A DNA stretch of 55,481 nucleotides from Bacteroidetes bacterium GWA2_40_15 (GTDB lineage Bacteria; Bacteroidota; Bacteroidia; Bacteroidales; VadinHA17): assembly GCA_001768195.1 (NCBI GenBank), contig MENI01000004.1, forward strand, positions 12,022-67,502, written 5' to 3'. The position numbers and the translations under genes are program-made. The notes below the pieces were generated by a model. The model worked only from the letters and a program-made list of their open reading frames with translations, was not told where the DNA came from and did no database searches. This document shows, piece by piece, positions 4,390 to 28,762 of this stretch; position 1 is the first letter of the stretch; each line of letters opens with the position of its first letter.

Positions 4390-6822
4390 ATGAACAGGAT
4401 AATACTCTTTTCCTTAACAGTTCTTATTCTGGGAGGTTGCAAGAAATCAGGATCTGATCCGGATCACTTCTCCTCCTTCGACAGGGCAAAACTGCACCCT
4501 GTTACAATGGACAAACCCGCCATCGGTTTTTTTGACGGGGCGCTTCTGGGAAACGGAGGGATGGGTGCAGTTGTGACCACAAGACCGGACGCTATTGTGA
4601 TATATTTCGGACATAACAATGTTTGGGATATCCGCGTAGCCGAGGACAACAGGGATAAGGTAAAGACATTTGATTATGTATTTAAGAAGGTAAGCGCCAT
4701 ACCCGATACTCTTGCGCTTCTTACAGATGATCCGTGGTATGCTGAATACAGCGCTATGGCAGCTGAGAATTACAGGAAACCTTATCCGCGTCCCTTTCCC
4801 TGCGGTACCGTTTTACTGGGCTTTGACCTGCGTAATGCTGAACTTCTGGGACATTCCCTGGATATCTCAACCGGATTGTGTGAAGTTTCACTCCTTACAA
4901 GTGAAGGGAAGAAAATAAAGTTTCAGGTCTTTACCGATATGACCGGTGATAAACTCCGGATGAAGCTTGTTGATGAAAGCGGCAACCCGGTCAGGAATAT
5001 ATTCGACCGGGTGCGCGTAATGCCCGACCCTTCAACTCCAAAAGAATTTCCTCTCTACAAGGCCACTGAAGATCTTCCCGGGGGTACTCTTTCGTTCCGG
5101 CAGGTGATGCCTTACCAGGAGCCCGGTAAATATGATCCGGAGAAAGGTCATCCGAAGGACAAGGCATTTTCACTCACATTAAGGGTGAACTCACCTCTTG
5201 TCAAAACCTCCCGTATAAACTGGGACGGCAATATGGAGATGATGGGAAAACTGGAGGGTACGCTTGAGGAAAAGGAGAGTTTTAACGGATATGTTTCACT
5301 TGATGAGGGATTGAATTCCTTTTTGGAGATGAACCCCGGGAATTACGGCATCCCTTCCGTAAAAGATTTTGATATCTCACGTGAAGCATCCACAAACATA
5401 TGGAAGGAATACTGGAACAAATCGGGTGTTGTGCTTAATGATGAGTTCCTTGAAAGGATATGGTATAATAACCTCTATTTCTTTAATTGTGCTGTTAAAG
5501 AGGGAGTTAATACTCCAGGCCTGTTTGCTAACTGGAGCTATAATGACATAGGTACCGCATGGCATGGCGATTATCACATGAATTATAATACACAGCAGCC
5601 TTTCTGGTTGACTTTCTCCAGCAATCATCTTGAGAAAAATCTGTCGTATGTCAGCCTGATCGAATTCCTGATGGATGTAAGCCGCAGGTGGGCAAAGGAG
5701 TATTACAATCTTCCTGGGGCCTATTTCCCTCACACCGGTTATCCTGTCGACATGACAATGAATCCGTATCCTGTACCTCACTGGGGATGGGAGATATGTG
5801 AAACACCATGGGCCGTACAGGGTTTGTGGTGGCATTATCTCTATTCGGGGGATGAGGATTTTCTCAGAAACCGTGGATTTCAACCAATCAAAGAGGCTGT
5901 GGAGTTCCTGGTAGCTTATATGAAGCGACCGGAGGCAAGAGGTCCGCAGTGGAATGACGACAAATACCATATCTTCCCGACTATTCCTCCTGAATTGTAT
6001 GCACTCAGGCCGGGGTTTAAATACAACTATGATTGTACTGTGGACCTGACCCTTGTTAGATTCATTTTCAATGCATTTGAAAAAGCTGTAAATGTGCTTG
6101 GCCTGCAGGAACAGGAACGTTATCTGGTTGCTGATGTAAAAGATATTCTCAGCCATTATCCTGATTATCCCACAGTTGAATCGGAGAAATACGGAAAGGT
6201 AATAGTCTCAGTGCCAGGAGAACACAGCCAGGTAGTTTATAATGTACCCAGTGCACTCATTACTGTTTTCCCCGGGGAGGATCATGGCCTGCACTCTGAC
6301 CCGGCAACTCTTGAACTTGTGAAGAACACATTTCTTAACCAGCAGAATGAAGGTGGCAATGACCTTGTATTCAAGAACCTGCAGGCAGCAAGGATTGGAA
6401 TGCTTGATATTGAAAAATTCAAAAGGCAGATAAACTATTGCCTGCTGCCGAACGGAACTGCATCGGACCGTGCAATACAGGTCCATGGGAGGTATAACGA
6501 TTTTAGTAATTATGGCTTTATGGAACATATGGGTGTCTGGTTTGAGAATTTTGCTCTTCCTGTTGTCATTAATGAATGCCTGATGCAGAGTTATAGCGGG
6601 GAGATAAGGTTGTTTCCCAACTGGCCTCCCGAAAAAGATGCAGAGTTCCACAATCTGAGGGCTGCAGGAGCTTTCCTGGTAAGTGCCCGGTTGAGGAATG
6701 GCAAAATAGAAAATGTCAGAATAATAAGTGAAGCAGGAAATAAACTCATTCTTAAGTCCCGGTCAGAGGTAATTGTCCGTGACACCAAAAGAGGGGAGAA
6801 GATCTTTATTAAATCATTCTGA
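4390..6822 (+). CDS. GH95-like glycoside hydrolase lipoprotein
   Basis: The start at 4390 gives a classic lipoprotein signal (MNRIILFSLTVLILGGC, lipobox LGGC); an in-frame ATG at 4363 would put nine extra residues before it. About 810 residues. The N-terminal part has FFDGALLGNGGMGAVV, the N-domain motif of clan GH-L enzymes (GH95 and relatives). The (alpha/alpha)6-barrel region has GLFANWSYNDIGTAWHGDYH then MNYNTQQPFW, near residues 377-406, which matches the GH95 pattern of W..DYHxNxNxQxxxW. GH95 enzymes release alpha-L-fucose or alpha-L-galactose; here the family is likely but the sugar is not certain. Probably anchored in a cell-envelope membrane. Only one base separates the stop from the next start, suggesting co-transcription with the following gene. 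Confidence 0.75.
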   Translation: MNRIILFSLTVLILGGCKKSGSDPDHFSSFDRAKLHPVTMDKPAIGFFDGALLGNGGMGAVVTTRPDAIVIYFGHNNVWDIRVAEDNRDKVKTFDYVFKKVSAIPDTLALLTDDPWYAEYSAMAAENYRKPYPRPFPCGTVLLGFDLRNAELLGHSLDISTGLCEVSLLTSEGKKIKFQVFTDMTGDKLRMKLVDESGNPVRNIFDRVRVMPDPSTPKEFPLYKATEDLPGGTLSFRQVMPYQEPGKYDPEKGHPKDKAFSLTLRVNSPLVKTSRINWDGNMEMMGKLEGTLEEKESFNGYVSLDEGLNSFLEMNPGNYGIPSVKDFDISREASTNIWKEYWNKSGVVLNDEFLERIWYNNLYFFNCAVKEGVNTPGLFANWSYNDIGTAWHGDYHMNYNTQQPFWLTFSSNHLEKNLSYVSLIEFLMDVSRRWAKEYYNLPGAYFPHTGYPVDMTMNPYPVPHWGWEICETPWAVQGLWWHYLYSGDEDFLRNRGFQPIKEAVEFLVAYMKRPEARGPQWNDDKYHIFPTIPPELYALRPGFKYNYDCTVDLTLVRFIFNAFEKAVNVLGLQEQERYLVADVKDILSHYPDYPTVESEKYGKVIVSVPGEHSQVVYNVPSALITVFPGEDHGLHSDPATLELVKNTFLNQQNEGGNDLVFKNLQAARIGMLDIEKFKRQINYCLLPNGTASDRAIQVHGRYNDFSNYGFMEHMGVWFENFALPVVINECLMQSYSGEIRLFPNWPPEKDAEFHNLRAAGAFLVSARLRNGKIENVRIISEAGNKLILKSRSEVIVRDTKRGEKIFIKSF

Positions 6823-20919: not shown

Positions 20920-22442
<1,523 letters not shown>

Positions 22443-22697
22443 TTAAGAGTAGTAATAATAAGACAGAGATCAGAAGAAGTCAGAAAAAGTTTCCCCTCCT
22501 TTTCAAGGAGGGGTGGCCGCAGTACAATGATAATCAAAGTATTGCAAATGCTGGTCGCGGCCGGGGTGGTTGATTGTTTTTTCAGATTGCGTCTGATTTT
22601 TTAATGATTACTTTCCTGATCTCACTTTTTAAACATTAAGGTTGCTGGAATACAAATCTGTTTTCAAACCTTAAAACCGAGAATCCAATTCTATCTA

Positions 22698-23904
22698 GTG
22701 TTATGTTAATCCTTAATTGACGGATATAACCTTTTTAACTTTACTCTTGCTTCCTTGTTTGTGAACTGCCAATTTATTCTACTGTTTTTATTATTCCGAT
22801 TAGTTTTCCAAGCCTCTACTTCTTCTTTTATTATTTCCATCTTGGATATATGCCGGTTCAAACATTGTCCGTTTAATACATGTAACTCTATCTCAGCCAT
22901 ATTTAACCAACTGCCATGTTTAGGCGTATACACAAATTCAAACCTATCCCATAATCTCTTGGCTTCTTTCGGTTTGAATGTTTCATAGAAAGCAGATGCT
23001 GTATGTGTATTATAATTGTCCATTACTAATGTTAATCGTTTCGCTTTAGGGTACTGTTCGTTTGCAATCCATTTGATGAACATTGCCCAATCTGTCTTAG
23101 TCTTAAATTCTGTCACTTCAACGAAACGCTTTCCTTTGAGTGGTTCATTTGCCATGAATATATTTATTACCCCATTCCTCACATACTCATAATCTACTCT
23201 TGTTTCCTGACCTGGCTTCATCGCTATTGTGTGTCGTGTTTCTTCTATTAATTGCTTTGGCGATTCATACATGCAAATTACCGGATAGTCTTTGTCGTAG
23301 GGTCTTTTATAAACATCCAATACACGTTCCATATTAGCTACAAACGCACTATTTTGTTCCGGAGGAATTACCCAGCCTTTTACTTTCCAAGGCTTAAGTT
23401 CGTTTTTTTTAAAACGCTTCTCACTGTTACATGAGAAATACTTTCAACATAATTTAATTCAACCATCTTGTCTGCCAGTAATCGCAACGACCATTTGGCA
23501 AATCCTTTCGGAGGCTCACTACAACAGAGAGTTACTAATTTGGCTTCCACATCCCCGTCTGTCTTTCTTTCATAAATGCGGGTGGTGGGTCGTCTATCCA
23601 GGCATGCTTCAAAACCCTCTTCGACAAATTTCTTCTTTATCCTGTCTATTGTTCGCATCCCAACTTTTAACACTTTGCTTATCTGCTCATTGGTTACTTT
23701 TTGTGAATACTTACCTTCATCACAATTTAATAGAATGTAGGCTGTGCGAAATGTCAGAGATGTATGAGAACCTTTATTGATAATACTCATGAGTTCTTCT
23801 ACTTCGCTTTTGGTTAGTTTAATTGTATATCGTATCATTTGTATAATTTTTACAAAGATACAAATATTTATTTTAATTACGTCATAATATATTTAACTTA
23901 ACAC
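22698..23904 (-). mobile_element. IS630-family insertion sequence (1207 bp), TA target duplication
   Basis: The ends are imperfect inverted repeats: GTGTTATGTTAATC at 22698 and, on the other strand at 23904, GTGTTAAGTTAAAT. A TA dinucleotide flanks each side (22696-22697 and 23905-23906), the target duplication of IS630/Tc1/mariner elements. Deleting the IS and one TA restores the length of the DUF559 gene relative to its intact relative. One transposase, encoded in two overlapping frames, fills the element. A promoter-like TATCTTTG lies at 23860-23853 on the minus strand, just upstream of the transposase. Confidence 0.92.
22706..23838 (-). CDS. IS630-family transposase, two frames joined by -1 frameshift
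   Basis: Frame A (23838-23380, 152 codons) encodes helix-turn-helix DNA-binding regions (NEQISKVLKVGMRTIDRIKK). Frame B (open from upstream of 23402 to 22706) encodes the DDE domain: VLDVYKRPYD (first Asp), LVMDNYNTHTASAFY (second Asp) and TPKHGSWLNMAEIE (Glu). The frames overlap at an A8 run (minus strand, 23410-23403) in TTAAAAAAAACG. A -1 slip there changes LKKTNLSLGK-stop into LKKNELKPWKVKGWVIPPEQ, the exact family sequence, and makes a product of about 377 residues. Either programmed frameshifting/transcript slippage or a real defect. The family cuts and pastes DNA at TA sites. Confidence 0.9.
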
Positions 23905-24159
23905 TATGTAATTATCCCTGATTTCATCTTTCTGTATTTTGTGATATTCCCCGTGGGGATCTCCTTCGATTCTTCCTCTAAATCAACCACTCCGGCCGGG
24001 AAATAAATTTTGTAAACATCAGATAATCAATTGTCCCGGCCACCCCTCCTTCAAAAGGAGGGGAAAGTATTATTATCGGATTATTTCCCGATACTAAAAT
24101 AAATTTGCCTTTATTAATCTACCATATTAATCCTTTTTCAGATTAGGGCTTGCATTGAC

Positions 24160-27422: not shown

Positions 27423-28154
27423 GGCATAGGCGTTAACTTAAAGAATTTGAAAAAGGTTTTACAGGAAGGATCAATAAAGGCAAACGGATTATAATATCGA
27501 ATTTAATTTCGGTCATAATACTTACCCCTCCTTTTGAAGGAGGGGATGGCCGCAGCACATTGATAGTTAATGTATTGCAAAGGCTGATTGCGGCCGGGGT
27601 GGTTGATTGGCTGGTTTATCAGATCTATTCTTTTCTATTGATAACTTTCCTTATTTCACTTTTTAAATATTCCGGTTCCTGGAATACAATTCTGTTTTCA
27701 AACCTTAATACAGTGAATCCAAAGCCCTCCGGATAGTTATCCCTGATTTCATCTTCCTGTATTTTATGATATTCCCCATGTGGATCTCCGTCAAGTTCTA
27801 TTATAAGTTTTTCTGAAGGACAACAGAAGTCAACAATGTAATAACCAATACTGTATTGTCTTCTGAATTTTCTTCCATTAAGTTTTCTTGATTTTAACAT
27901 CTCCCATAATGCTGCCTCAGCCGAAGTGGACCTGTTCCTGAGAGATGATCTGAAAGATTTAAGGCCTTTTCTGTTGAAGAGGTTTTTGTTATTCATAGAT
28001 ATAAAGATAAAAAGAAAGAATAAATCAACCACCCCGTCCCGACGCTACCGTCGGGACACCCCTCCTTGAAAAGGAGAGCCTGCCCCGCTTTGGCGGGGGG
28101 AAACTTTTTCAATCACTGTATTTACAATACTACTCTTAAGTTAACGCCTATGCC
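27423..28154. mobile_element. DUF559-carrying element with perfect 19-bp terminal inverted repeats
   Basis: 732 bp. The left end GGCATAGGCGTTAACTTAA (27423-27441) recurs exactly in inverted form at 28136-28154. Inside, the left arm (27525-27608) has a CCCCTCCTTTTGAAGGAGGGG-type hairpin, a GGCCGC...GCGGCC fold, and GGGGTGGTTGATT next to the gene. The right arm (28023-28076) has AATCAACCACCCC, a GTCCCGACG-CTAC-CGTCGGGAC hairpin, then CCCCTCCTTGAAAAGGAG. The single gene between them encodes a DUF559 protein. Another hairpin GTCCCGCCTTGGCGGGAC lies just outside (28164-28181). No duplicated target site is obvious. No known transposase is present. Confidence 0.75.
27625..27996 (-). CDS. DUF559 protein (Vsr/PD-(D/E)xK endonuclease-like)
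   Basis: The start at 27996 (MNNKNLFNRKGLKSFRSSLR) is preferred; an ATG at 28032 would add 12 hydrophobic residues that lie partly in the repeat arm. About 123 residues. Family motifs: RNRSTSAEAALWEMLKSRKL, GRKFRRQYSIGYYIVDF, then CCPSEKLIIELDGDPHGEYH, which has the acidic/hydrophobic pattern D..E.D of a Vsr-like nuclease core. Such proteins are single-domain, of unknown physiological role, and in many Bacteroidota are set inside hairpin-rich repeats. The gene here is flanked on both sides by complementary GGGGTGGTTGATT/AATCAACCACCCC. A role in moving the element is a hypothesis only. Confidence 0.85.
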   Translation of the reverse strand: MNNKNLFNRKGLKSFRSSLRNRSTSAEAALWEMLKSRKLNGRKFRRQYSIGYYIVDFCCPSEKLIIELDGDPHGEYHKIQEDEIRDNYPEGFGFTVLRFENRIVFQEPEYLKSEIRKVINRKE

Positions 28155-28668: not shown

Positions 28669-28720
28669 ATGCTTATAAAATTTAGTAAATGTATAAATTT
28701 AAGCTTTCAGTCAATAATAT

Positions 28721-28762
28721 GTTCCAGGTTCCAGGTTCCATGTTCCAGGTTCCAGGTTCCAG
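28721..28762. repeat. Heptamer tandem repeat, GTTCCAG x6
   Basis: Six 7-base units in a row, with one variant (GTTCCAT, third unit). In the spacer between the divergent tadA and aspS genes. Confidence 0.9.

Follow-up and report, generated by a model that had tools for sequence, protein, structure and literature searches.

What moves a solitary DUF559 gene that is framed by perfect inverted repeats, and does its product have a part in the movement? The question is raised by a locus in a stretch of 55,481 nucleotides (the window) on contig C4 of a Bacteroidota assembly of 4.77 Mb in 127 contigs. An earlier note, made from these letters alone, had suggested that the gene and its repeats form a mobile palindromic unit and that DUF559 may drive, or benefit from, the spread of that unit.

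Organization of the locus

The features of the unit and of a second copy nearby are, in window coordinates:

27425..28152, no strand: whole outer unit, an IS231-type (IS4 family) non-autonomous cassette, assigned from its ends, family-wide 10-bp duplications and the partner insertion sequence at locus L171
27423..27441, + strand: left 19-bp terminal repeat, an exact inverted pair with the right repeat
28136..28154, - strand: right 19-bp terminal repeat, an exact inverted pair with the left repeat
27522..27608, + strand: left inner arm, fold z -4.85, recurring at other copies
27525-27545, 27548-27595 and 27596-27608: hairpin 1, hairpin 2 and tag GGGGTGGTTGATT of the left arm
27625..28032, - strand: DUF559 gene, PF04480 with E 2.2e-31, 135 aa counted from GTG
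28023..28100, - strand: right inner arm, fold z -4.83
28023-28035, 28036-28057, 28058-28080 and about 28083-28098: tag, hairpin 2, hairpin 1 and a small extra hairpin of the right arm
about 22428-24062, no strand: decayed further copy of the unit, split by an inserted transposase gene pair (DDE_3 and HTH domains)

The 19-bp inverted ends are exact and lie where the earlier note had placed them; at up to three mismatches the end occurs three times in the window against 0.03 occurrences expected from shuffles. The duplications found in the family place the boundary of the element two bases inside the 19-mer (CATAGG, 27425 to 28152). The nested arms that the note had described around a single DUF559 gene are also present. 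A CCCCTCC..GGAGGGG hairpin occupies 27524-27545 in the left arm, with an imperfect version at 28058-28076 in the right arm, and the complementary 13-mers GGGGTGGTTGATT and AATCAACCACCCC (27596-27608 and 28023-28035) flank the gene. Folded as single strands, both arms give hairpin 1, hairpin 2 and an unpaired GGGGTGGTTGATT adjoining the gene, and the folding is far beyond that of shuffled sequences (0/200 as good for either arm); the right arm differs from the left in its hairpin 2 and in having one more small hairpin. The arm hairpins are strong evidence (four sites versus 0.00 expected), while the 13-mer tag by itself is weak evidence, with six window sites at up to two mismatches versus 1.75 expected. 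The ATG at 27996 seems a likelier start for the DUF559 gene than the GTG. A tandem repeat, consisting of two perfect copies of the 21-bp unit ATGTTCCAGGTTCCAGGTTCC, is found at window positions 28719-28760.

Copies of the unit and the orthologous site

The second copy announced some 5 kb away exists, but it is decayed, and for its right outer end there is no match at up to three mismatches. The element inside it (22690-23905) is of the IS630 type and consists of two ORFs, in which DDE_3 and HTH domains are recognized. In the genome as a whole PF04480 has 32 matches, many of them fragmentary or stop-containing, and the 811-bp unit used as a blastn query returned 94 pieces. The 19-bp end occurs at 31 sites with up to two mismatches, 14 of them exact (reversed-pattern control, 0), and at 58 sites under a looser pattern. 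Mapping of 48 loci revealed a common layout of outer end, arm, DUF559 gene (often internally deleted), arm and outer end, with several copies lacking detectable outer ends; there are also cassettes of about 100-220 bp which possess the same ends and no DUF559. The end pattern was found in nine of 41 genomes (this one included), all of one genus, and DUF559 in 25 of the 41. Early flank comparisons of DUF559 loci were made with assumed domain borders and have lead value only. Five further DUF559 genes of the genus (L005, L121, L129, L130 and L133) lie between ACCCCTAAATCCCCCAAGGGGGACTT-like repeats, three of them (L005, L130 and L133) apparently, by eye, between the ends of ABC-permease-like genes.

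A match to the deaminase gene next to the unit was obtained in 25/25 genomes of the genus. Since that in G002 is only weak and paralogous, 23 congener loci were compared. Neither DUF559 nor a cassette end (at up to two mismatches) is present at that site in any of the 23, and in 22 of them the same 160-aa gene comes next after the deaminase. The unit is thus missing from its orthologous place in every congener locus compared, which, with the many copies, the 10-bp duplications of the family and the short derivatives devoid of DUF559, bears out the view that it is mobile. One congener locus (L320, in G019) holds, at about 1930-2720, some 0.8 kb of extra DNA which by eye resembles a decayed and apparently separate cassette.

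The outer layer

IS231 has a characteristic end sequence, a GGG-N5-CCC target and cassettes with passengers. The outer ends of the present family read CATAG(C/G)CGT..AACTTAAG, and the CATAGSCGTYAACYTAAG ends match the IS231 row published in PMC2266710, in which the ends are CAT-------AA--TAA and the repeats 10-12 bp. Target duplications, for which the note had advised a search, were sought in the bases outside the CATAG ends in 45 distinct end pairs from fetched loci. Duplications of 10 bp are exact in 11/45 pairs and have at most one mismatch in 15/45; with up to two mismatches allowed at this length the count is 22 of the 45, against a mean of 3.0 and a maximum of 8 for shuffled partners. 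A length of 9 gave three exact cases and lengths of 11-13 none. The copy in the window lacks a target duplication, its ten-base flanks differing at 5 positions. By eye the targets of the cassettes are C/G-rich, often CCCnnnnGGG-like, and at times consist of a further repeat like those beside DUF559.

A partner transposase was sought with PF01609 in nine genomes, 30 of the 39 matches being taken as loci, and by protein search in 25 genomes. One of the 30 loci, L171 in congener G018, contains a transposase with the Y-2-R-3-E-6-K (YREK) signature between two such ends at a distance of 1.6 kb; another, L173, has a single end only. Relatives of the L171 transposase occur in 3/25 genomes, all three among the nine with ends, and the protein search with L171 detected none in the assembly that holds the window. 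Because an insertion sequence of a congener has such ends together with a YREK transposase, the outer layer can be classed as a cassette of the IS231 type (IS4 family) and is not moved by DUF559; its movement in trans by that transposase is putative.

The DUF559 protein

A profile search matched 3hrl at 1.7e-35 and 3r3p, a mobile intron protein, at 1e-6. Six residues (E29, D58, E69, D71, H75 and D84) are invariant across 31 sequences. The structure model has a mean pLDDT of 81, and its fold matches 3hrl and then the catalytic domain of I-Bth0305I, with Vsr weaker (0.009). DUF559 has the fold and the catalytic-type residues of an EDxHD homing endonuclease, site-specific cutting and homing into empty alleles being putative activities. 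The six intact copies in the genome are under purifying selection (omega 0.17-0.48 over 15 pairs, median 0.30). A DUF559 gene has been placed among the EDxHD homing endonucleases in a passing remark in PMC9403480.

Inner palindromes across phyla

Genes of the DUF559 family lie between similar inverted palindromes in many bacterial phyla. A search for conserved DUF559 peptides in named genomes yielded 574 confirmed loci, of which the best 80, a non-random set of good matches, were examined; these span Proteobacteria, Chloroflexota, cyanobacteria, Planctomycetes and Bacteroidota among others. Of these 80, the 76 with sufficient flank were compared over 400 bp on each side with a score cut-off of 18. 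Inverted similarity between the flanks reached this value at 44/76 DUF559 loci versus 1/396 neighbouring windows, and in 23/228 control comparisons of flanks from different loci. Similarity in direct orientation is also frequent in the same set (34/76), and because of this and of the motif sharing between loci, it is the presence of palindromes, more than their inverted arrangement, that sets the DUF559 loci apart. Strict pyrimidine/purine hairpins stand on both sides at 26/76 of these loci versus 0/385 control windows, and on at least one side at 50/76 versus 15/385; the arms in the window are missed by this strict pattern.

Typical cross-phylum arms have the form CCCTCACCCC..CCCTCTCCC..GGGAGAGGG, and in several, by eye, stem and tag are separated by a second hairpin, as they are in the window. 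The orientation of the tags varies, a crude count giving 8 loci with both in, 10 with both out and 10 mixed. Among the 44 loci, again from the best 80 of 574, arm similarity increases with protein similarity (rho 0.28, 0/2000 permutations as high, kinship ignored), and does so with Acinetobacter removed (rho 0.27, 1/2000 permutations, kinship ignored).

Within the Bacteroidota DUF559 is present in 170 of 296 sampled genomes. One BoxC-type form of the hairpin was found in 62/126 genomes with a strong DUF559 match (E below 1e-15) versus 19/170 without, a co-occurrence over the 296 genomes with a Fisher p of 5e-13, kinship being ignored. There are 64 genomes among the 126 with zero hairpins of that form, and hairpin-rich genomes with no DUF559 match (G126 with 32, G165 with 16 and G041 with 12). 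For another Bacteroidota repeat, a count with the loop fixed at 3 nt (5/25 genomes) was set aside, its spacing being wrong for the commoner form.

Units within host genes

At 19/80 loci (best 80 of 574) the DUF559 domain is embedded in a single open frame, 120 or more residues preceding and following it. All ten proteins chosen for scanning have Pfam domains of the host together with DUF559: an HrpA-type helicase, valyl- and leucyl-tRNA synthetase, methionine synthase, PriA, Eco57I-type and N6 methylases, HsdR, and lumazine-binding and HMGL-like proteins. As judged by the flanking peptides, three loci (L132, L200 and L203) have a common site in leucyl-tRNA synthetase and another three (L207, L211 and L220) a common site in HsdR. 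The in-frame units carry repeats at their borders.

The leucyl-tRNA synthetase site was compared at 23 loci among relatives of G093. It is filled in 2/23 (483 nt between anchors) and empty in 19/23 (15-30 nt); a third state is found at L349, where there is a solo arm that matches the beginning of the left arm of the filled form almost perfectly, and L359 holds a different palindrome. The insert replaces a few codons and the frame is kept. At a second site in leucyl-tRNA synthetase six loci (L338, L341, L345, L346, L349 and L352) have variable in-frame stretches with no obvious palindromes, the gap being 177-279 nt in these and 30-60 nt elsewhere.

Interpretation

The explanation that we favour, and hold to be rather probable, is a nested element, in which an IS231-type cassette carries a homing-type DUF559 nuclease that would itself spread palindromic repeats. 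A DDE transposase acting in trans would move the cassette into C/G-rich targets with 10-bp duplications. Its passenger would be a second selfish unit, a DUF559 gene between inverted repeats (hairpin, hairpin and GGGGTGG tag) of the BoxC or intrastrand-triplex type. DUF559, whose fold is of the Vsr/EDxHD kind, most likely acts as a homing-type endonuclease. It would cut the DNA at such repeats or in their vicinity, or else at empty sites, and repair may then copy the repeat-gene-repeat unit, or a single repeat, to new places, including in frame within host genes; solo repeats would arise through DUF559 in the same way. The cassette would offer the DUF559 unit a second route of spread. Weighing against this explanation are the lack of a duplication at the window copy and, in the protein search, of a partner transposase in its assembly, the frequent direct similarity of flanks, the hairpin-rich genomes devoid of a DUF559 match and the DUF559-positive ones devoid of that hairpin form, the varying tag orientation, and the repair-type role proposed for a DUF559 protein from Caulobacter (PMC12907096).

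The suggestion in the note that DUF559 drives or benefits from spread has to be divided. Benefit is well supported and the driving of the inner repeats plausible, while the driving of the 19-bp-ended unit is not borne out, such ends flanking an IS4-family transposase in the congener. Many copies of the unit do hold DUF559 or its remnants, as would be expected if DUF559 moved it; against this, the ends and the 10-bp duplications are in keeping with an IS4-type DDE element such as the congener has, the cassettes of about 100-220 bp have the same ends without the gene, and the gene is in 25 and the ends in nine of the 41 genomes. The IS4-type ends and duplications led us to reject this mechanism, which we regard as very improbable. 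The tie between DUF559 and palindromes is upheld in another form, with the inner kind of palindrome, across phyla and inside host genes.

A more serious contender, though still an unlikely one, makes DUF559 a mere passenger of an ordinary IS231-type cassette, the palindromes being fragile triplex-forming hot spots for many insertions and recombinations. A DDE transposase alone does account for the outer layer, the cassettes themselves insert (by eye) in C/G-rich palindromes, some genomes bear hairpins without DUF559, and PMC4666352 links triplex motifs to unstable regions. Such a reading fits poorly with palindromes that, across phyla, flank DUF559 on either side and are nearly absent around neighbouring windows, with arm similarity that tracks protein similarity, with repeats at the borders of the in-frame units, and with purifying selection on the DUF559 copies. 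It is less probable again that DUF559 is a resident Vsr-like nuclease of the repair or restriction type which acts on the non-B structures of the repeats, so that the association reflects function and not spread. The Vsr-like fold is in keeping with such a role, as is Caulobacter VsrA, a DUF559 protein that triggers DNA damage signalling when a methylase is missing and for which a repair-type role is proposed in PMC12907096. Multiple and decaying copies, a patchy distribution and in-frame insertion are better suited to a selfish gene.

Returning to the nested element, family genes sit between similar repeats across phyla, some of them seamlessly inside genes, which suggests that the DUF559 nuclease helps to spread these repeats, a class that has long been known. 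DUF559 proteins (COG2852, YcjD-like) might then be the missing mobility enzymes of the BoxC or intrastrand-triplex repeats, homing-type nucleases of a new kind of element which is here cassette-borne, a proposal whose chances seem to us evenly balanced. If it is true, triplex-forming repeats are spread by a nuclease and not by a transposase, singly or as units, even within essential genes. DUF559 is a common family, and the link would give both it and the repeats a testable role; the empty, solo and filled alleles at the leucyl-tRNA synthetase site lend themselves to a direct test. It would also account for repeat-derived peptides, such as PSPSGRG, within unrelated proteins.

Comparison with known systems

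Taken singly, cassettes, homing nucleases and triplex repeats are familiar; for the link of DUF559 to these repeats, with its in-frame units, we found no report in the open-licence PMC literature. Mobile insertion cassettes are an established concept for IS231. The present unit shares with those of the IS231/IS4 type its ends, duplications of about 10 bp, the want of an internal transposase, a passenger gene and a partner in a congener, and differs in that the passenger is DUF559 with palindromic arms of its own and the host a Bacteroidota bacterium.

With the BoxC, PIT or intrastrand triplex repeats, as described in PMC4666352, the arms of many DUF559 loci share by eye the layout of C-tag, C-stem and G-stem; the arms in the window differ in having an extra long hairpin between stem and tag, in the first loop. 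According to the same paper no remnants of transposases or integrases were ever seen near the E. coli sites, and no adjacent mobility genes are described in it; the repeats at the present locus, by contrast, enclose a gene for a nuclease. In E. coli K-12 a BoxC-type motif lies some 165 bp away from the 3' end of the DUF559 gene ycjD (L308), and a partial motif overlaps that end (positions 5205-5241 and 5396-5420 of the locus); most of the region is present in 3334/5426 genomes. As a clean filled and empty site ycjD was rejected, efflux (eef-type) genes being found there in the four other strains fetched; such genes are likewise described at this region in PMC12817139.

The EDxHD homing endonuclease I-Bth0305I (3r3p) resembles DUF559 in fold, in sequence and in its conserved acidic and histidine residues, but the DUF559 units have palindromes as their borders and occupy many different sites. 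The REP/RAYT systems likewise consist of hairpin-plus-tag repeats, solo or flanking one gene; there the enzyme is a Y1-HUH protein and the tag of the GTAG type, and here they are a Vsr-fold nuclease (PF04480) and GGGGTGGTTGATT. Finally, the Rickettsia palindromic elements are also palindromic repeats lodged in frame within protein genes, in other hosts and with other sequences, and it is in its full form, which carries a nuclease gene, that the DUF559 unit departs from them.
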